NCBI GenBank assembly: GCA_016201905.1
Contig: JACQBQ010000056.1
Span: 1 to 64,000 of the forward strand
Reading direction: 5' to 3'
Source: Candidatus Melainabacteria bacterium
GTDB taxonomy: Bacteria; Cyanobacteriota; Vampirovibrionia; 2-02-FULL-35-15
DNA length: 64,000 bases
Below the pieces are notes generated by a model. It saw only the letters and a program-made list of their open reading frames with translations. It ran no database searches and was not told the origin of the DNA. This document shows positions 129 to 17,156 of this stretch, one piece after another (the stretch's first letter is position 1; every line of letters begins with the position of its first letter). Position numbers and translations under genes: made by a program.

Positions 129-2015
129 TCACATCTCGTACGGATATATGTGTTTATAATCTTCTGGTTTTGCAAAAAGTTTTTTATTCTCAGTCTCTGT
201 AGGTGGCAAAGTGGCAAACTTCCCTAAAGTGTTGTTTTCTTGAGAATTAGAACCTTCTGCACTTTGCCCACAGCTTGGCAAAGTACTGGCAAAGTCTATA
301 CCCCTATTGAACCATGCAACTAAACTAATAATTTTTAATAGCTTTTCCCGTTCTCTGGTTCCACCGGAGCCTGGTACTTGCATGTGCAGTTTATTAGCAA
401 ATAGAACTAAAATATCTCTGGTTTTTATAGCTGGTAACTCGCCTATATACCTCTGCCACTTTTCACATATTAATTCTTCTTCAGTTTCTGAGATACGAAT
501 TCCCATAGCCCTTCGATCAAGCATTGCATTAACTCTTGCTATATGTTCTGGGCTATCATCAGTGTGCAGTATTAATAACCTGCTTTCATTTTCCTCATTT
601 AAGTGTTGTTGTGTAGTAGTAGTTATGTAAACAATTGGACCATAAGCCGTTCTAATTTCAGTCACAAACCTATTAGTATTTGGATCTTTAATAGTTACAG
701 CTTTACCAACCTTGGCTTCAGAAATTAACTGTCTAAAAGTCCTTTCAATCTTCTCGTACTTAGGATCGTTTGCCTTATGTGCTTCAGTTTCAATAATTAT
801 CATGTGAGGTAGATTATCCATATATTCTAAGGATTCATTTGAAAAAGTACCTATAAATAACACTTTGCCATTTGGCATTAACTTTGCAGCAGTTTCAACA
901 AGACAAGTTTTACCAGAGGAAAAGCCTCCTTTTAAAATTGAACCGGTACACTTATCTTGCTTATGTGAAGCCATACATAAGGTAAGTAAAATACTATTTC
1001 CTTCTTCATCTACCACATCTAATTTTTTTAGATCTTGCAAGAGAATAGGTAACTTATCTTTTTCTTTTTTTAGCTTTTCAAGTTCTTCTTTAACTTGCTT
1101 ATTAAAACTTTTAGTTCCTGTTAATAATTTATAAAAATCATCGAAAGAGTGTTCTTTTAGGTAATCTCTTAAGTCAACAAAGCCATCGGATAATCTAACA
1201 ATATTTGCATCACCTAGTATTTCTTTAATTGCTAAGGCTTCTTTATTACCAGCTTCATCATTGTCAAATAGAGGATAAACATCATCAAATAATCCGAAGT
1301 TTAAGGAAGGAGTATTTAGTTTATGAGTACTATTAACTCCATGCACAGAAATCACTACATAAAAATCATTCCTAAACTCATCTGTTGCAACACAATCTAA
1401 CGCCCAAAGGTTTGTAAATCCTTCAAGTAAGACTAAATTCTTTTGTTGTTTATATTCACCAAGTGCAATAAATTGAGGTTCTATTTTATCTTCACAATCA
1501 TTGTCCCATCTGTCAGATCTATCATCTAAAGGTTTTAACTTCCACCTTTTACCAATAGGAATTGCAATACAATCATTTGCTTCACAGTATTTAAGCCCAT
1601 GTTTTTGAGCAATAAATTCTGGCTTAGTAATATTTTTTTCTTCAAAATAGTTCTTTATCTTCTCATGATCAAGATTAATATCAACAAGTCTAAGTTTCTT
1701 TGCAGTCCAGTCTTTCCCCTTTCTTTCTTTAGATATGCTTATTTTTAAATTAAACTTCTGGACTATTTCTTCTATTGCTTGTTTAAATCCAACCTTATGA
1801 AACTGCTTATACCACTCAATCTTGTCTCCATGAACACCACAATTAAAGCAATTAAATATTCCATCATCTCTTATTGAACAGCTTTTATTATCAGCATTAC
1901 ACCCAGGCAAGGGGCACCAAACAGAAGTGTTTTTACCTTTAAGTTCAAAGCCAAAGCTTTGATAAAAGACAGTACTATCTAGCTTTTTAAGTATGTCATT
2001 AACAATATCTTTCAT
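129..2015 (-). CDS. CHC2 zinc-finger primase / toprim-like / ATPase protein
   Basis: A 628-residue protein, probably a primase-helicase of a mobile element. The N-terminus has a CHC2-type zinc finger (C34, C39 or C46, then C56 and C59 in FNCFNCG). A toprim-like middle follows (LVLLEG near 195, then PLFDNDEAG near 250). A P-loop (GGFSSGKT) and a hydrophobic strand ending in IIETEA give a AAA+/DnaB-like ATPase half. The start overlaps the end of the helicase gene upstream by 17 bases, so both are probably translated from one mRNA. Zinc-finger primases fused to an ATPase are typical of phages, satellites and plasmids. The fold assignment is by motif only; the exact family is not certain. Confidence 0.72.
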   Translation of the reverse strand: MKDIVNDILKKLDSTVFYQSFGFELKGKNTSVWCPLPGCNADNKSCSIRDDGIFNCFNCGVHGDKIEWYKQFHKVGFKQAIEEIVQKFNLKISISKERKGKDWTAKKLRLVDINLDHEKIKNYFEEKNITKPEFIAQKHGLKYCEANDCIAIPIGKRWKLKPLDDRSDRWDNDCEDKIEPQFIALGEYKQQKNLVLLEGFTNLWALDCVATDEFRNDFYVVISVHGVNSTHKLNTPSLNFGLFDDVYPLFDNDEAGNKEALAIKEILGDANIVRLSDGFVDLRDYLKEHSFDDFYKLLTGTKSFNKQVKEELEKLKKEKDKLPILLQDLKKLDVVDEEGNSILLTLCMASHKQDKCTGSILKGGFSSGKTCLVETAAKLMPNGKVLFIGTFSNESLEYMDNLPHMIIIETEAHKANDPKYEKIERTFRQLISEAKVGKAVTIKDPNTNRFVTEIRTAYGPIVYITTTTQQHLNEENESRLLILHTDDSPEHIARVNAMLDRRAMGIRISETEEELICEKWQRYIGELPAIKTRDILVLFANKLHMQVPGSGGTREREKLLKIISLVAWFNRGIDFASTLPSCGQSAEGSNSQENNTLGKFATLPPTETENKKLFAKPEDYKHIYPYEM

Positions 2016-3318
2016 TTTCCCTCTTCATAAAATCAATTATTTTAGGATCGACAAGTATATCTTTTGAAGTGATTTTACGTTTTAGATAGATCCCATCTAA
2101 ACTTGTACATCTACTTAGAGCTACATATGTTTGACCACAGGCAAAAGCCCCGGTACCCAAATCAATAAGTACAGAATCTAAGGTTTTTCCTTGCGACTTA
2201 TGAATCGTAATTGCCCAAGCAAGTTTTAGTGGATATTGGGTAAATGATGCTACTATCTCTGCTTTTATTGAATTAGTTTTTTCATCGAAATTGTAACGAT
2301 ACTTCTCCCATGTTTCTTTTTTTATAAGGTGGATTTCACCTTTTATATCTACTTTAACTTCGTCCCTTGTCAAAGAATGAACATGTCCTAGTGTCCCATT
2401 AACCCAGCGATTTAGATTACGATCATTTCTTACAAACATCACTTGGGCACCTTTCTTTAGCCTAAGTGATAATTCTGCAGGAAAAGATGACTGATCAAAA
2501 TCCCCATTAATATGAGCTTCATAAATAAACAGATCGCTATAAAGTTGATTCAAATGTTTTTCATTAATTTGATCAGCTATTTTATTAGTTGAAGTTAAAG
2601 TTATTACACCATTTGTTGGTACTGAAACTTTAGCCCTCTCATTTAACGAGTTGAATGTTTCTGAACTGCAACGATCTTCACGGATACAATCCAACATATG
2701 CTTAAATTGAATATCTTCTTGGCGAAAAACGGTCTTAAGTTCATACATTTCAAATGAACTGCGTTGCCATACTTTGGCATTGAGAAAATAAATTCCTCCA
2801 TACTTTCTCGTAAAATACTGAAGCAATTCTTCTTCTTTAACAACTGGGGGCAGTTGATATAAATCCCCAACCATAATTATTTGAACACCACCAAATGGAT
2901 CATTATTTGATCTCGCTTTCCTAAGGACAATGTCAATAGCATCCATTAGTTCTACTCTAACCATTGAAATCTCATCAATAATGACCATATCAATTGCCTT
3001 TAACAGTTTCTTCGTTCTTTCTCCAACATTTATATCTTCTTCAGTAATGAATTTAGGCGGCAATCGAAAAAGAGAATGTATAGTTTGCCCACCCACATTA
3101 ACAGCTGCAACACCAGTAGGTGCTACAACTACACAACGTTTCTTTGTGTTTTCTTTAATATCTTGTAATAATGTTGATTTACCAGTGCCAGCCTTACCAG
3201 TAATGAAAAGATGTTTATTAGTGCTTTCTATAATATTTTTTATATCAAGCTGTTCTTCACTCAGTTTTATTTCACCAGCTGTTTCATTTAATAAATTGCT
3301 ATAGTCTAATTTCATCAT
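1999..3318 (-). CDS. PIF1/RecD-like SF1 DNA helicase
   Basis: A 439-residue superfamily 1B helicase predicted to unwind DNA 5' to 3'. The Walker A is GKAGTGKST (about residues 41-49), Walker B is IIDEISMV, and the C-terminal helicase motif reads TIHKSQGKTLDSV followed by YVALSRC. These are the hallmarks of PIF1/RecD2 proteins. It is short and compact, with no added N- or C-terminal domains. It is the fifth gene of the minus-strand run 5086 to 129 and overlaps the primase gene. The pairing with a primase supports a replication role for an integrated element; a general repair role is the alternative. Confidence 0.82.
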   Translation of the reverse strand: MMKLDYSNLLNETAGEIKLSEEQLDIKNIIESTNKHLFITGKAGTGKSTLLQDIKENTKKRCVVVAPTGVAAVNVGGQTIHSLFRLPPKFITEEDINVGERTKKLLKAIDMVIIDEISMVRVELMDAIDIVLRKARSNNDPFGGVQIIMVGDLYQLPPVVKEEELLQYFTRKYGGIYFLNAKVWQRSSFEMYELKTVFRQEDIQFKHMLDCIREDRCSSETFNSLNERAKVSVPTNGVITLTSTNKIADQINEKHLNQLYSDLFIYEAHINGDFDQSSFPAELSLRLKKGAQVMFVRNDRNLNRWVNGTLGHVHSLTRDEVKVDIKGEIHLIKKETWEKYRYNFDEKTNSIKAEIVASFTQYPLKLAWAITIHKSQGKTLDSVLIDLGTGAFACGQTYVALSRCTSLDGIYLKRKITSKDILVDPKIIDFMKRENERYC

Positions 3319-7408: not shown

Positions 7409-7942
7409 TTATTTTCTTGGCTTAGCAAGTACTGTTGCTGGCATATTAATTTGCTGATTTGTTTCCGGTATATAGAAACTGAGGGTACAATCGCCATTAA
7501 TTGAACAGCCAGCACCCAAGGTGGTATTACACATAAAATGAACAATTTCTTGACGACTTTGAGGTTGTACATTAAGTTTAAGACTAAGCGGAATATCAAA
7601 TGATAGTTGGTAAGCCGTTTGCGTGATTACAATGTTTTCTTTAACAGCGCTGGTAGATAATTCTTCAATTGAAGCGGCAAACTGATCTTTTCTAGGACAA
7701 CAAGGTACAAGTGCACCAGGAACACGATTAGTTACCTTCATTTTATAATCAAAAATTGCACTTCCAAGAGTACCTATTCCAGTATCCTGAACCCCTGACT
7801 GAATAACCTTGACATGATAGCTTTTAGCAAGGGTATAACCAGGACCAGCTTTAAAACCATTACAAGCTACTACTTCTGTAATAAAAGAAGTATTTGTTAA
7901 GAGAATTGCGAATACTATGAAAAGCAATTTATTTTTGTTCAT
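7409..7942 (-). CDS. Secreted hypothetical protein
   Basis: A 177-residue protein with an N-terminal signal peptide ending about VVA-CNG. The mature domain is beta-rich and holds Cys residues (VPCCPRKD, HFMCNTT, GAGCSINGDCTLSF) that could form disulfides. It is the first gene of the run 7942-5252, 42 bases before the 501-residue gene. Its promoter faces the XRE regulator gene across a 124-base gap that contains two inverted repeats, so it may be controlled by that regulator. No family recognised. Confidence 0.6.
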   Translation of the reverse strand: MNKNKLLFIVFAILLTNTSFITEVVACNGFKAGPGYTLAKSYHVKVIQSGVQDTGIGTLGSAIFDYKMKVTNRVPGALVPCCPRKDQFAASIEELSTSAVKENIVITQTAYQLSFDIPLSLKLNVQPQSRQEIVHFMCNTTLGAGCSINGDCTLSFYIPETNQQINMPATVLAKPRK

Positions 7943-7977
7943 ATATTTTTTAACCTACTATATGCATAAAAACGTTA

Positions 7978-8021
7978 TTGTAGTTCAGTATACTACAAGG
8001 CTGTTATATGACATATAACAG
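7978..8021. promoter_or_regulatory. Two inverted repeats in the divergent promoter region (putative operators)
   Basis: TTGTAGT (7978-7984) and ACTACAA (7992-7998) form a 7-bp inverted repeat with a 7-base spacer. CTGTTATATG (8001-8010) and CATATAACAG (8012-8021) form a perfect 10-bp inverted repeat around one base. They lie between the secreted-protein operon and the XRE gene. The first half-sites recur upstream of the nuclease-helicase, which makes operator function likely. Confidence 0.6.
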
Positions 8022-8066
8022 TAAAGATTTTAGCCAATTACCTTTAAATACAGAGGTGGAAAATAA

Positions 8067-8288
8067 TTGGTTAAGTGGTATAAAAGGTTAAAAAAAGCTA
8101 GGGAGGCTATGGGTCTATCATTAGAAGGTGCGGTAAAACTCTTGCACGAAGAACATAAAATAAAAATGCATAGAGTTAATTTGTATAAAGTTGAACAAGG
8201 GCAAAGCGAAATGCCAGTACATAAGTTTAGAGCTCTATGTAATATTTATTCAGTTAGTGCTGATTGGGTTTTGGATTTGAAGGAGTAA
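8067..8288 (+). CDS. XRE/Cro-family regulator (controller-like)
   Basis: A 73-residue protein made almost only of a helix-turn-helix domain of the XRE/Cro type (LKKAREAMGLSLEGAVKLL, then YKVEQGQSEMPVHKFRALCNIYSVSADWVLDL). The start is TTG: AGAGGTGG lies 8 bases upstream and the HTH needs this N-terminus. It is followed by the nuclease-helicase gene 129 bases downstream. Size and position match controller (C) proteins of restriction systems, which bind inverted repeats near their own promoter; here such repeats are present on both sides. Confidence 0.75.
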   Translation: MVKWYKRLKKAREAMGLSLEGAVKLLHEEHKIKMHRVNLYKVEQGQSEMPVHKFRALCNIYSVSADWVLDLKE

Positions 8289-8318
8289 GAAGTTACCCCA
8301 CTTGCATCCCTCTAACCA

Positions 8319-8394
8319 CGTAGTATTTAATAATCATCAAATATCCTTTTGTAGTCCCTGAAGTAAACACTACAAACAAAATGAAATTACTACG
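8319..8394. promoter_or_regulatory. Nested inverted repeats upstream of the nuclease-helicase (putative operator)
   Basis: The inner pair is TTGTAGT (8349-8355) and ACTACAA (8369-8375), the same 7-base half-sites as at 7978-7998 but 13 bases apart. An outer pair is CGTAGTA (8319-8325) and TACTACG (8388-8394). A TAAAAT -10-like box follows at 8412-8417. Shared half-sites suggest one regulator acts on both promoters. Confidence 0.55.
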
Positions 8395-8417
8395 CAAAAA
8401 TTAAAAATTGTTAAAAT

Positions 8418-11400
8418 ATGAGCATGTACCAAAGTAGTTATAAAATAACTCCTAGTCTATTTAAGAAATATTCCCCCCGATATGCTCATAATGAGATCCT
8501 ATCAAGGGCTAAGCTGTTTAACATTGTCGAACATGAAAAAATCGTTTCAATAATTGATGCAATTGTTAATGATGATCCGATTTATGATCCTCAACTTGCT
8601 GGACACTTTTATGAAATAATCCTTCTTGATGCTGTGGTAACAGACTATTTAAGCCCCAAGCATGGCTTAGAAAGTACAAATATTGCAAGAAGTCCGAATC
8701 AACCATATGTTGATTTTGTAACTTTTAAAAATAATAAGCCCAGCGTACTTTACCAAGTCAAGTGGTCTCTAAATGATGAAGATGCATTACACCTCGTCCA
8801 AGGAGCATGGGGCACACTACATTCATGTTCTCAATTCAATAATGCCAAGCCTTTTATCGTTGTTAATCACTCCGTTGGAGGAAGGTTAGTAGCTGACTTA
8901 AAGAAGTCTGTCAAAGTAGTTTTGGGTTCACAGTTATATGAATGGCTCGATAAGCGTTTTCATAGAGAAATTGTTCCAGCATTAAAAGAAGCAACAAAAG
9001 TAGCTAGCGTTGTTGTTTATCAAGGTGAGAAGAAACTCAATTTGAACCCTATTCAGAGAGAGCACCGACAAGCCACTGATAAAGCTCTTTTAAAGGGTGG
9101 TGCAGCTAGTTGGCACTTATGTCCTGCATATGGAAAAACAATCATTGGGTTAGATGTCTTACATGAAGTTTTAAAAGGTCAAAAAAAGAATGAATTAGCA
9201 GTTGTTGGCGTTCCACGCCTTTCTTTAGCTGGTCAGTGGAGGAAAAAAGCAAGAAAGTACAAAGAGTTTAATGATGTTGGAATAGAAATATTTGGAACAT
9301 ATGAACGTAAGAAAGATACACCTCTTGACAAAGAGATTGATGATTTAAAAACAGATAAAGATTCAGATGAACAATGGGACAGGCATGGAACTACTAATGT
9401 TAATGAAATACTAAACTCTCTAGCTACATTTAAAAAGAAAATAATTATTTCAACATACCAATCCTTGTCAAAACTTGTTGAAAAAAGAAACAGGAAGTAC
9501 AAAATTCGTTTTATAATTGCTGATGAAGCACATAGATCAAGCCCGGTTTTTAAACTAAAAGGTAAAAATCTTTGGTCTAATTTAAAGAAAACAGATAATA
9601 CGAAACTTATTATTGCATCAGCAACCTTGCCTCCACAATTAAGCAAACGAATTGGTGTAAAAGAACCTACTTGTAGTTTGAACCTAGACCAAGCACTTAA
9701 CGAGAGAAGATACTCTAAATATTTAACTAAAGGTAAACAAGCAAGACTATGTGGAATGTGGGGTTTACTAAGACTAGCTCACAAAAATGATGGGGATAAA
9801 GATATATATAATTTTCTGGTAAAAAGATTACCAAGATTTGTTAGAGCAAAAAACAAGTGGAAAAGAAATCATTCTGTAAAGGTTCTTATATTTTGTTTTT
9901 CAATTACTGAAGCAATTAATGTACGTAATATCTTACGTACTGGTGGAAGAAAAGAGAAAAGGACAACAAAAATAAAAAAAGATATTGCTTATGCAGTATC
10001 AAGTAGCAGAAGAACATCAGATGATGAGAATAAGTCAGCACAAAAACATCTTAGGGATTCAATAACTCTTTTTGAGAAAAGTAAAAGTTCGGTTATATTT
10101 TTAACTAATGCAGAAATTTTAACAGAAGGAATTGATTTACCTGATTGTAGTGCAGTAGCTATACTATCACGAAGATCATATGCTCCTATGACACAGATCA
10201 TGGGTCGTGCTGTGCGTTATGCTCCTGGGAAAAAATGCGGTGTAACTGCTTTCTATGGTATTTGTTCTGACAAAGCAAAAGTAGAAAAAGGGATTGAAAA
10301 ATACCGAAGTTACATGGAAGATGTTTTGGGATCATCGTTTTATTTTGACCAAGTAATTCAAGGCAAGGGAGGAGTTAGAGAGCTACCTTCAGGAAATCGA
10401 GATACAAGAACAGTTTTGGATGAAACAGGTCCCCTTCCAAAAGGGAATCCAACTGAACAAATTTCATATGTAGTTAAAAAGAGAAAGAAGGAATTTGGAA
10501 TAACTAAGAAAATAGAACCTGCCGCTATTTCTACTATTCGTAAAAAGAGAAAAATAATTGAATATATTAAAAGATATAAGCGTCCTCCTCCCGGAGGACA
10601 TGAGTTAAATAACTCCTGCAGAGACTACCGGCATGAAGACCCGGATTTCAAAAGGCAAACTGATGAGCTTTTAGAAAAATTAGGTGTGTTGTTAAAAGAT
10701 GAGGCTGCAGAACAAAAGAAGGCTGAATTACTTATCTACTTACAAAAAAAAGGGAAACCAAAACTTGATACACCAATGTACAAAGATTATATAAGGTACA
10801 GAGGAAGTGATGATGATTTCAAGATTAGATCAAATGAAATCTTAAAAAAGAGAGGCGAGTTACCTAAGTTTGAGAATAAACATGAAACAAAAATGCAATT
10901 ACTTAAGTACCTTGATGAAGAAGGAGAGAACCCACCAACAGATACACCTTTGTATAGATTTTTGGTGGCGTACCGTAAAAAAGACAAAGATATAAAAAGA
11001 GTAATAAAAGAAAAGAAAATCCTTTTCAAACGTGAAAAAGCCCAAGAGAAAGTTATTCAAGGTCTAAGTTATTTAAAAGAGACCGGTAGATTTCCTGTTA
11101 GTGATTCAGAAATAGGCAGGGCATTTTATAGGCGTATGAGTAGTGATGAAAATTTCAAGAAAAAAGCTTATGAAATTCGTAGACAACATAAAAATCCTGT
11201 CCAGTTTGAAAGGACAAAGCTAAACCAAGAAGACTTCCTTAAATTTATAAAGAAAACTGGAGAAAAACCAACAGCCAAAAATCATCCACAAGGGAAATTA
11301 TTTAATGAATATATGAGAAAATATCCTATTTTTAGAGATAAAGCTTTAAAGGCATTTGAAAGTAAAAATGTTATATTCAGAACAAAAGAAGAAAGAGTGC

Positions 11401-12068
11401 AGAAAAAACAAAATGAAATTATTGCATATAGTAGAGAATTTGGTATTTATCCGCCTCCAGGAACTACACTGGGGATTGCTTGCAGTATTTATAGGCATAG
11501 GGAAGCACTTTATCATGAGTTTAATCGGAAGCTGGATATAGAAGTTGATAAGGCAAGTAAGAGAGTTAAAAATTTATTGATTAAGTTAATGGAAAACAGT
11601 GGTACTTATATACCCCAAAAGCACAGATACTATAAATCTTATTACAATTTCATGAAGTATGACCCCTGGTTCAAGTTTACAGTGGATTTTCTATTTATAC
11701 CAATACGCATTCAAAAATTTTCAACTCTTAAAGATTTGATGGAAGCGGTTAGAGCAAAGAGGATAAATAATATCTATAATTACCGAAAAGCCTGCAAGGA
11801 GAACAAAAGGTTTCCAGTTCACCCCGAAGAAAAATATAAAGATTGGAAGGATTGGACATATTTATTTACTGGTAAAGAAAAGAAAGAAAAATATGCATCA
11901 TATAAAGAGGCTAGAATTGCAGCTAGAAAATTGAAAATTAAGGGAGGTCGAAGAGAATATCGAAAAAGGTATAAAGAAAATCCAAGATTACCATTTCATC
12001 CTAAAGAGCTTTACAAAAAAGATTGGAAGGGATGGGATGACTTTTTGGGTAAAACAAAAGTAAGATAG
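8418..12068 (+). CDS. PD-(D/E)XK nuclease - SF2 helicase - integrase-repeat fusion protein
   Basis: A 1216-residue multidomain enzyme. The N-terminal 130 residues look like a restriction-endonuclease fold (E66, D99, then Q113-V-K115 in LYQVKW). A superfamily 2 helicase core follows: P-loop CPAYGKT near 240, ISTYQSL, IADEAH at 367-372, IIASATL near 400, and a C-terminal half with TEGIDLP and QIMGRAVRYAPGK. About 400 residues of degenerate basic repeats come next. The last 105 residues hold two phage-integrase repeat units (FPVHPEEKYKDWKDW; LPFHPKELYKKDWKGWDDFLG in two parts). It fits a single-chain restriction or anti-phage protein under the XRE gene upstream. No methylase is visible. A start at 8424 is possible if TAAAAT (8412-8417) drives a leaderless mRNA. 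Confidence 0.72.
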   Translation: MSMYQSSYKITPSLFKKYSPRYAHNEILSRAKLFNIVEHEKIVSIIDAIVNDDPIYDPQLAGHFYEIILLDAVVTDYLSPKHGLESTNIARSPNQPYVDFVTFKNNKPSVLYQVKWSLNDEDALHLVQGAWGTLHSCSQFNNAKPFIVVNHSVGGRLVADLKKSVKVVLGSQLYEWLDKRFHREIVPALKEATKVASVVVYQGEKKLNLNPIQREHRQATDKALLKGGAASWHLCPAYGKTIIGLDVLHEVLKGQKKNELAVVGVPRLSLAGQWRKKARKYKEFNDVGIEIFGTYERKKDTPLDKEIDDLKTDKDSDEQWDRHGTTNVNEILNSLATFKKKIIISTYQSLSKLVEKRNRKYKIRFIIADEAHRSSPVFKLKGKNLWSNLKKTDNTKLIIASATLPPQLSKRIGVKEPTCSLNLDQALNERRYSKYLTKGKQARLCGMWGLLRLAHKNDGDKDIYNFLVKRLPRFVRAKNKWKRNHSVKVLIFCFSITEAINVRNILRTGGRKEKRTTKIKKDIAYAVSSSRRTSDDENKSAQKHLRDSITLFEKSKSSVIFLTNAEILTEGIDLPDCSAVAILSRRSYAPMTQIMGRAVRYAPGKKCGVTAFYGICSDKAKVEKGIEKYRSYMEDVLGSSFYFDQVIQGKGGVRELPSGNRDTRTVLDETGPLPKGNPTEQISYVVKKRKKEFGITKKIEPAAISTIRKKRKIIEYIKRYKRPPPGGHELNNSCRDYRHEDPDFKRQTDELLEKLGVLLKDEAAEQKKAELLIYLQKKGKPKLDTPMYKDYIRYRGSDDDFKIRSNEILKKRGELPKFENKHETKMQLLKYLDEEGENPPTDTPLYRFLVAYRKKDKDIKRVIKEKKILFKREKAQEKVIQGLSYLKETGRFPVSDSEIGRAFYRRMSSDENFKKKAYEIRRQHKNPVQFERTKLNQEDFLKFIKKTGEKPTAKNHPQGKLFNEYMRKYPIFRDKALKAFESKNVIFRTKEERVQKKQNEIIAYSREFGIYPPPGTTLGIACSIYRHREALYHEFNRKLDIEVDKASKRVKNLLIKLMENSGTYIPQKHRYYKSYYNFMKYDPWFKFTVDFLFIPIRIQKFSTLKDLMEAVRAKRINNIYNYRKACKENKRFPVHPEEKYKDWKDWTYLFTGKEKKEKYASYKEARIAARKLKIKGGRREYRKRYKENPRLPFHPKELYKKDWKGWDDFLGKTKVR

Positions 12069-12099
12069 TAAAACAAAGGATAAATGTAATATAAAAAAA

Positions 12100-12356
12100 A
12101 CACTTGGAAAGATTACACAAATTGATTTAAAAGAATGCTGGGAAGATGAAGCAAGAAATTTTAACCACGGCAAGCAGAAGAAGTAAGTCTTAATGAATTA
12201 GGCAAAGCCGTTGGTATAGAGCTTGAATGGGAGGCGATCGAGAAAAGAACTGGTGTCTTCAAAACTGATATTTTAGCTAGAGAAAGTGGTACTGATAACT
12301 ATATAGTAATTGAGAATCAACTAGAAAAAACAAATCATGATATTTGGGAAAATTAA
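12100..12356 (+). pseudogene. Frame-shifted remnant of a DUF4268-type protein
   Basis: The frame at 12100 reads LGKITQIDLKECWEDEARNF and then stops. From about 12165 the +1 frame continues LNELGKAVGIELEWEAIE and TDILARESGTDNYIVIENQ, ending at 12356. Together this matches the N-terminal nuclease-like half of DUF4268 proteins, whose usual text at the break is PWLAEEENL. There is no start codon in context and the C-terminal half is gone. It lies just after the nuclease-helicase and shows decay in this accessory region. Confidence 0.65.
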
Positions 12357-12553
12357 ATCTAAGAAATTCCTAGAGTCCTTTGGCAGATTTAAATAACTGA
12401 ATTACTAAAGATTCCTACTATATGCAAGTGAAATAATATTCATTAACCTACAAGTATTTGCAGCTATTATTACAAATATTTTGCTAAGTTTAATTGGGGG
12501 AGATTTCTGTTTACAAGTATATTTTTTTAGAATTTCGGGTATAATGGCGAACA

Positions 12554-13820: not shown

Positions 13821-13882
13821 CCGTTGCAAAGAAGGTTTAATTATCTCTTGACAAATTTGCAATGATATTGCAAAATATATGC

Positions 13883-15046
13883 ATGTGGATTGAAAGAAAT
13901 TACTCAAAATTGTTACGTAGAAATCTTGCTCAATTCCCTGTTATTTTACTTACAGGTGCTCGTCAAGTGGGTAAAACCTCATTATTAGAAAAAGACTTAT
14001 CGGGCTTTAATTTTTGTTCGCTTGAAGATCCTATTCTTGCCCGGGAAGCTGAAGAAGCTCCTGATGTTTTTTTTACAAAATATCGATTACCAGTCATTAT
14101 TGATGAAGTGCAATATGCCCCTAAACTTTTTAAATACATTAAACTTCTTGTAGATAAGCACAAGAAGAAAGGACAATTTGCTCTAACTGGCTCACAAAGT
14201 TTTCAATTAATGCAAAATGTATCAGAAAGTCTTGCTGGACGATGTGGGATTATAACTATGTCTGGCATAAGTGGTGTGGAAAGAAGAAACAATAATCTAC
14301 CTTTTGCAAATACTGAAATTTTATTAAGAGGTTCATATCCTGAATTAATTGCAAACAAAAGTTTCAATAAAACTGACTGGTATAGAAGCTATATTGCTTC
14401 GTACCTTGAACGGGATGTAAGAAACATTTTAAAAGTTGGAGATATAAGAGACTTTTCTACGTTTTTAACAGCTGTAGTTCTTAGATCTGGACAAATCTTA
14501 TCTTATAGTGATCTTGCAAGAGATGTAGGTATTGCAGTAAATACTGCAAAGAGCTGGCTGTCAGTACTTGAAGCATCTCAGGTTATTTATTTACTTAAAC
14601 CCTATCATAAAAATCTTGGAAAGAGACTATTTAAATCACCGAAACTCTACATACGGGATACAGGATTATTTTGTCATTTAGCAAATATACAAGACTCAAC
14701 AACATTAAATTCTTCTCCATATATTGGAGCAGTATGGGAAACATATGTCCTAAATCAGGTGATTAGTTCATATCAAGAAAATGGATTAAACACAAACGTT
14801 TGGTTTTGGCGAACACAAAGCGGACAAGAGGTTGATTTTTTAATTGACACTGGGGGAAAACTAACAGCTATTGAAGTAAAATATTCTGAAAAACCTGATA
14901 TAGAAAAAATAAAAAAGGGTTATAATTCTTTGAAACAATTCTATGGGGATAATATTGTAGAGAAGCTTATTATTGCAACAACCGGAAAAGAAAGTCACAA
15001 AGTAGGAAAAGATATTTATATTAAAAGTGGTTGGTTTTCGGAATAA
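13883..15046 (+). CDS. DUF4143-family AAA+ ATPase
   Basis: About 387 residues. The N-terminal ATPase carries Walker A GARQVGKTS and Walker B VIIDEVQYAP; a winged-helix segment follows; the C-terminal DUF4143 part has a nuclease-like sheet (EVDFLI then AIEVKYS). I start at the ATG giving MWIERNYSKLLRR, the usual start of this family; an in-frame ATG 21 bases earlier (13862) is possible. These ATPases are common and mobile, of unclear function, with toxin or defence roles proposed. It is flanked by the R1/R2 repeats and is only distantly related to the second DUF4143 gene at 15888. Confidence 0.82.
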   Translation: MWIERNYSKLLRRNLAQFPVILLTGARQVGKTSLLEKDLSGFNFCSLEDPILAREAEEAPDVFFTKYRLPVIIDEVQYAPKLFKYIKLLVDKHKKKGQFALTGSQSFQLMQNVSESLAGRCGIITMSGISGVERRNNNLPFANTEILLRGSYPELIANKSFNKTDWYRSYIASYLERDVRNILKVGDIRDFSTFLTAVVLRSGQILSYSDLARDVGIAVNTAKSWLSVLEASQVIYLLKPYHKNLGKRLFKSPKLYIRDTGLFCHLANIQDSTTLNSSPYIGAVWETYVLNQVISSYQENGLNTNVWFWRTQSGQEVDFLIDTGGKLTAIEVKYSEKPDIEKIKKGYNSLKQFYGDNIVEKLIIATTGKESHKVGKDIYIKSGWFSE

Positions 15047-15887: not shown

Positions 15888-17156
15888 ATGGAGCTAAAGC
15901 GGTCAATTTTTAAAGAAGTAATATACGACCTTACTCGTAAAGAGATAAAAATCATTATTGGCCCAAGACAAGTAGGTAAAACAACCTTGTTAAAAGGCAT
16001 TGCAAAACACTGCAAAGAAAAAAAACTTGGATATGAATATTTTAATCTTGAAATGCCAGCTGATACCAATTTTTTTGCAAGAGACTTTCAAAATATATTA
16101 AATGACATAGCGAAAAAAAAGGAAAGGCAAATTATTTTTATAGATGAGTTTCATTACTTACCTAATGCTACAAAGTTGTTTAAGGCTATATATGATGGAT
16201 TAAAAAGGGTAAAAGTTTATGCTTCAGGCTCATCTGCAATAGAGATGCATAAACACTTAAAGGAAAGTCTTGCCGGAAGAAGAAGGTTGTACAGACTTTA
16301 TCCACTTTCTTTTTCTGAGTGGTTGCCAAGTAAATCTAAATCTATTAAATTGCCGAGCAATATACATTCTGAGATAAAAAAGCAAACTCACAATAAATTA
16401 AAAATATACCTTGAGGAATTCATTATATTTGGTGGAATGCCTGGCTTAGTCCATGAAAGAGGAATTGAGGCAAGGAGGCGACTATTGATTGATCTTGTTG
16501 CAACTTATATACAAAAAGACATAAAAGCACTTCTGCGTGAGGAAGATATACTTTCTTTCAATAGATTGCTTTCATTATTGGCTAGTCAAGAAGGAGGAAT
16601 GCTAAGTGAACTCAGTGTTTCACAAGCACTTAACTACTCCCTTAGACAAGTTAGAAAAGACATTGCAATATTAAATCAAATGTTCTTGCTTGATGTTTTA
16701 AAGCCATTTTTTACAAACCGCGGAAGAGAACTAAAGCAAACCAATAAAATATACTTTTTCGATAGTGGAGTTAGAAATGCTATTTTACATGATTTCAGAA
16801 GCTTAAAACATCGTGAAGATAAAGGAGCACTTTTAGAATCATTTGTTCTACACGAGATTCAAAAAAATCTTGAGGTATCACAAGAACTCTATTACTGGCG
16901 TACCAGAGAAAAAGAAGAAGTTGATTTGATACTTGTTCAAGATAGGATACCGTTACCAATTGAAGTTAAATCAAAATTAGTTACAGCAGATATACCTCAA
17001 GGAGTAAAACAATTTTTAGATAAATATCCTGAATCTAGCTATGCAATAGTTTTAAATGATGATCTATTTAAAGTATCTTTATATAAAAACAGAAAAATAT
17101 TTTTTATGCCACACTACTATGCTTTTCTTATACCCAAAGGGTTTAAAAACTTTTAG
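15888..17156 (+). CDS. DUF4143-family AAA+ ATPase (second type)
   Basis: A 422-residue ATPase: Walker A GPRQVGKTTLL near residue 25, Walker B IIFIDEFHYL, arginine-rich sensor segment SLAGRRRLYRLYP, and a C-terminal DUF4143 domain with EEVDLIL and PIEVKSKL as nuclease-like core. It is of the archaeal-like subtype and shares little sequence with the gene at 13883. The -10 box lies 8 bases upstream with no ribosome site. R1 lies just before the gene and R1+R2 just after it, so gene and repeats may have moved together. Confidence 0.83.
   Translation: MELKRSIFKEVIYDLTRKEIKIIIGPRQVGKTTLLKGIAKHCKEKKLGYEYFNLEMPADTNFFARDFQNILNDIAKKKERQIIFIDEFHYLPNATKLFKAIYDGLKRVKVYASGSSAIEMHKHLKESLAGRRRLYRLYPLSFSEWLPSKSKSIKLPSNIHSEIKKQTHNKLKIYLEEFIIFGGMPGLVHERGIEARRRLLIDLVATYIQKDIKALLREEDILSFNRLLSLLASQEGGMLSELSVSQALNYSLRQVRKDIAILNQMFLLDVLKPFFTNRGRELKQTNKIYFFDSGVRNAILHDFRSLKHREDKGALLESFVLHEIQKNLEVSQELYYWRTREKEEVDLILVQDRIPLPIEVKSKLVTADIPQGVKQFLDKYPESSYAIVLNDDLFKVSLYKNRKIFFMPHYYAFLIPKGFKNF

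Follow-up and report, generated by a model that had tools for sequence, protein, structure and literature searches.

Restriction-type motors must spare the DNA of their own cell somehow. The locus described here raises the question of what function is served by a rare protein in which a probable domain for DNA cleavage, a DNA motor and nine short repeats that probably bind DNA are joined in a single chain. The locus lies in a window of 64,000 nucleotides, the whole stretch of DNA that was analysed, and its features are collected in Table 1. The single 1216-residue chain proposed in a sequence-only reading of this DNA was confirmed as one uninterrupted ORF. That reading had begun the feature at position 7942, where in fact a gene running divergently on the minus strand (7409-7942) has its start codon; the feature proper consists of a small HTH gene followed by the large ORF.

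Table 1. Features of the locus, with positions in the window and residues of the large ORF
Feature	Positions	Strand	Remarks
Operator-like dyad TTGTAGT-N7-ACTACAA	7978-7998		5' of the HTH gene
21-bp palindrome CTGTTATATGACATATAACAG	8001-8021		Adjoins the first dyad; 10-bp arms, 1-nt spacer
HTH_31/XRE-type regulator, 73 aa, C-protein size	8067-8288	+	TTG start, SD GAGGTGG
Second dyad TTGTAGT-N13-ACTACAA	8349-8375		Between the HTH gene and the large ORF
Large ORF, 1216 aa	8418-12068	+	ATG start, intact, single frame
N-terminal domain, residues 1-210, probable PD-(D/E)XK nuclease	8418-9047	+	Motif E66, D99, Q113-x-K115
SF2 motor, residues ~211-661	9048-10400	+	ResIII, DEAD and Helicase_C matches plus motifs
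Seven basic repeats, ~57 aa each, residues 705-1096	10530-11705	+	Remotely HA-like
Two INT_rpt units, residues 1100-1146 and 1156-1211	11706-12065	+	INT_rpt profile

The assignment of the central part of the protein to the SF2 DEAH helicases was upheld by a Pfam scan, which returned matches to ResIII (2.6e-11), DEAD (5.6e-11) and Helicase_C (2.4e-5). The motor motifs are intact, with GKT at residues 239-241, DEAH at 369-372, SAT at 401-403, NAEILTEGID at 564-573 and QIMGRAVR at 593-600. The motor was also detected by a profile made from Type ISP-like heads with the protein left out (86.8 bits, residues 204-378 and 482-632); the N-terminus of the large ORF was not found with this profile. When the large ORF was searched as a single sequence, the only PDB matches were RadD (E 0.002) and a Type I R subunit (E 0.018). 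These matches would suit a RadD- or XPB-like helicase of DNA repair or recombination that carries DNA-binding repeats, and in which the N-terminal domain would be structural or a repair nuclease.

The case for a nuclease at the N-terminus is carried by a motif. No match to the domain was found among Pfam, NCBIfam and PADLOC models, or by profile-profile comparison with the Mrr domains of the relatives described below (hhalign probability 0.3%), a result that would also be in keeping with a repair helicase. However, the domain contains the arrangement D99-x13-Q113-x-K115, in which the spacing between D and Q is the modal one in Mrr-type relatives. D99 and Q113 do not vary in a 61-row alignment, and K115 is nearly as constant. 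When the domain was shuffled 20,000 times, the strict pattern arose in 4 cases, a frequency that applies to a pattern picked after inspection of the sequence. No relatives of the domain were found among the other 385 sampled genomes of the phylum. The PD-(D/E)XK-like nuclease proposed earlier is thus backed by the motif and by no family model; an Mrr-like or PD-(D/E)XK nuclease is likely from the residue pattern, and we infer nuclease activity on this basis.

C-terminal of the motor, only repeats were recognised, and neither a coupler nor a target-recognition domain (TRD) was found in the large ORF. The long run of basic repeats noticed by eye resolves into seven mutually coherent units, for which no match was obtained among Pfam families. 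Each scores 64-77 bits against their own profile; given that this profile was built from the same repeats, such scores demonstrate coherence only, and independent support comes from pairwise scores between segments. The basic repeats can be aligned in register with a profile of the HA repeats in the arrays of relatives (hhalign probability 43%, score 20.0), as compared with at most 13.7 for 100 column-shuffled profiles and 9.4 for a reversed one. The two phage-integrase repeat units were likewise recovered, as two stretches matching INT_rpt (PF14882; 1.5e-7; 32 bits versus a curated cut-off of 26.5; best stretch, 37 bits). With a broader INT_rpt profile, the first unit scored 13.2 bits and the second 38.3 bits. 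No mutual match was observed between the INT_rpt and HA profiles. The tail is strongly basic, with a pI of 9.8-10.2, which makes it reasonable to expect that it binds DNA. Of the chain as it had been proposed, the motor, the basic repeats and the two INT_rpt units are all present, and the candidate nuclease is represented by its motif.

The XRE/Cro-type gene of C-protein size that had been placed ahead of the large ORF is an HTH_31 gene, and candidate dyads precede both it and the nuclease-motor gene, as expected for a controller next door. The pattern TTGTAGT-N5..15-ACTACAA occurs twice in the window and in none of 100 shuffles, and the dyad is present at three places in the 2.28-Mb genome, the third being inside a long ORF. 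The proposal of a dedicated regulator is strengthened because the same dyad half-site stands before both genes and otherwise occurs once in the genome, within a coding region. This distribution supports a putative operator shared by the HTH gene and the large ORF. Elsewhere in the window, the half-sites of only one other dyad are reused within 500 bp, and these are AT-rich. With up to three mismatches allowed, the 21-bp palindrome has no second copy in the genome. The dyads at 7978-8021 may instead belong to the divergent gene at 7409-7942, or be shared with it. No conserved HTH gene was observed upstream of the relatives.

Single-sequence searches of plasmids, phages, viral contigs and GTDB contigs revealed no close relatives. 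Distant relatives were found via whole genomes and then by alignment-based scans, those from GTDB being among the matches listed, beyond which closer ones may exist. Among them are proteins with an Mrr nuclease, an SF2 motor and arrays of INT_rpt or HA repeats and with no methylase motif, which (among the matches listed) occur in Cyanobacteria-like, proteobacterial, Bacteroidota and Verrucomicrobia genomes and on viral contigs. One head is found in three main layouts, in which it is accompanied by a methylase motif (Type ISP-like), INT_rpt arrays or HA arrays. The NPPY motif is absent from the repeat-armed relatives, and Mrr_cat_2 was detected in all three that were scanned (L017, L018 and L008). 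Across their first ~620 residues, the tested relatives are classed by PADLOC as partial restriction enzymes, and a profile of all heads, in which the window protein is included as a row, matches LlaBIII (1.6e-226) and LlaGI (2.1e-178). In a tree of the heads, the rows with INT_rpt arrays cluster as a single group, and three changes are required to account for those with HA arrays. The head of the window protein could not be placed in this tree, its branch being extremely long (6.7-10 substitutions per site), so that support for kinship extends no further than the SF2 motor.

The domain order had been thought new. It is not: an order of nuclease, motor and repeat array with no methylase recurs in many phyla, so that a similar layout, if not the same mix, is present in other bacteria. 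What is unusual at the large ORF is the mixed tail of seven remotely HA-like and two INT_rpt repeats, which was not seen among the relatives examined, together with the diverged head and the apparent operators. No account of the repeat-armed group was found in the literature on INT_rpt, PF03457 and HA-type nucleases, a survey that mostly covered sources other than subscription journals. Two individual proteins were also noted. At L007:5326-9489, eight N-terminal INT_rpt units are followed by a helicase-like part and a methyltransferase-like end (by eye), so that the repeats are on the opposite side of the motor. At L008:4082-8107 (minus strand), eleven near-identical HA repeats are present, the differences between which cluster around an LGxWVxxxR helix.

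Most of the surrounding genes that have Pfam matches serve metabolism or housekeeping or encode AAA ATPases, and no known defence gene was found among the neighbouring window genes with such matches. Immediately downstream, positions 12069-12360 hold a fragment with a frameshift (LGKITQIDLKECWEDEARNF / LNELGKAVGIELEWEAIEKRTGVFKTDILARESGTDNYIVIENQLEKTNHD); by eye it is similar to a DUF4268-type nuclease, and it has no Pfam match. Two AAA_14/DUF4143 ATPase genes are located close together at 13862-15046 and 15888-17156. Near the contig end, a DnaG-type zinc-finger primase-like gene overlaps a PIF1-type helicase gene (129-3318, minus strand); this pair is possibly the remnant of a replicating element.

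The large ORF was absent from all 10 same-family genomes searched and from the other 49 relatives searched; it is thus an accessory gene, and it is rare in the phylum. One member of this phylum has a gene order like that of Prochlorococcus, and the genome probably belongs to the Vampirovibrionia, the cyanobacterial kin that lack photosynthesis. Such a distribution is unlike that of a housekeeping gene, and, together with the gene's own regulator and putative operators and the presence of Mrr_cat_2 in relatives of the same layout, it makes the repair helicase introduced above unlikely. A somewhat smaller likelihood is given to a protein of mobile-element maintenance or transfer, working for an integrative element and not for its host cell. 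In line with this idea, the INT_rpt tail has matches in the VPA1269 family, in proteins carried by Pseudomonas plasmids, some INT_rpt-armed relatives are on IMG/VR contigs, and the Pfam family met most often among the neighbour genes of the relatives is phage integrase, yet at only 3 of 130. However, the plasmid match is limited to the INT_rpt part, no integrase or relaxase was found among the tested window genes, and the window contains no tRNA. PADLOC families are also present among the neighbours of the relatives, an observation confined to these neighbourhoods.

With regard to a methylase, none was detected in the large ORF by the Pfam scan, and its translation contains no NPPY or NPPF motif. 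The earlier statement that no methylase is present holds for the large ORF and its tested neighbours. Elsewhere in the genome, outside the window, N6/N4 methylase-like matches were found in two stretches (G000:C17:35537-36859), one of them with two in-frame stops, so that the locus is probably decayed, and a marginal N6_Mtase match was found on contig C12. That the protein is a restriction subunit served by such a methylase is the least probable of the explanations, given that these matches sit on other contigs, one of them interrupted, and that the chains of the repeat-armed relatives are without the methylase motif.

The reading preferred here, to which we assign a probability of about one-half, is an autoregulated, accessory, methylase-free DNA-translocating nuclease that seems to derive from restriction enzymes and is likely directed against phages or mobile elements. 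In this scheme, the HA-like basic repeats and INT_rpt units would tether the enzyme to double-stranded DNA, and the SF2 motor, powered by ATP hydrolysis, would pump DNA. Cleavage by the N-terminal Mrr-like domain would occur upon collision or stalling of the motor. The mode of action would thus be that of the restriction half in Type ISP enzymes, whose collision mechanism has been described (PMC7049714), with the repeat array replacing the methylase/TRD half and taking over loading. The HTH protein would bind the dyads at its own gene and at the nuclease gene and so keep the nuclease low or time its expression. Self-DNA would be spared by the controlled dose, by the array's choice of sites, or by both.

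An extension of this reading, in which tandem HA/INT_rpt units with variable residues act as a modular site reader, such that the array itself encodes specificity for foreign DNA and self-DNA is without sites, is distinctly doubtful. It draws on variability in the arrays of relatives, where the most variable repeat positions have a pN/pS of ~0.75-1.3 as compared with 0.2-0.5 elsewhere; given that these columns were chosen for their variability, the contrast is only a lead. Two INT_rpt arrays also share more of their variable positions than chance would give, an overlap that could be due to surface exposure. Nuclease-motors of this ISP-like kind, in which repeats replace the methylase and TRD, would be natural candidates for methylation-independent choice of targets. 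The present locus adds a candidate dedicated regulator and nearly genome-unique putative operators, by which control of dose becomes testable.

Among known systems, PbeA of phosphorothioate-based defence gives a weak match in the helicase region (2.4e-7), with its best stretch confined to residues 238-315. Restriction C proteins with their C-boxes are similar in arrangement only, with a small upstream HTH protein and dyads before its own gene and the nuclease; unlike them, the window locus has no methylase to coordinate, and binding to the dyads is putative. The Type ISP enzymes LlaBIII (4xqk) and LlaGI (5ffj) share with the large ORF the single chain, the N-terminal position of the nuclease and the SF2 motif set, and they are matched strongly by the heads of its relatives. 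By contrast, the large ORF has a repeat tail instead of coupler, methylase and TRD, and its head is too diverged to place. Its single chain does contain an SF2 helicase-like ATPase, but the methylase with its NPPY-type motif and the coupler with TRD are absent; given that two defining features (methylase and TRD) are lacking, the large ORF is not a member of Type ISP. The INT_rpt-armed nuclease-motors (such as L017, L018, L037 and L082) have the same succession of nuclease position, SF2 motor and C-terminal INT_rpt, with no methylase motif. They differ in carrying 2-12 INT_rpt units, with HA-like repeats not detected, and in the Mrr_cat_2 domain of L017 and L018, whereas the large ORF has seven HA-like and two INT_rpt units and a candidate nuclease that matches no family model. 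Finally, in the HA-repeat-armed nuclease-motors (such as L008, L040 and L064), the nuclease position and SF2 motor are likewise followed by repeats of ~55-60 aa; these are clear HA repeats, whereas the large ORF combines a remote HA match with INT_rpt units.
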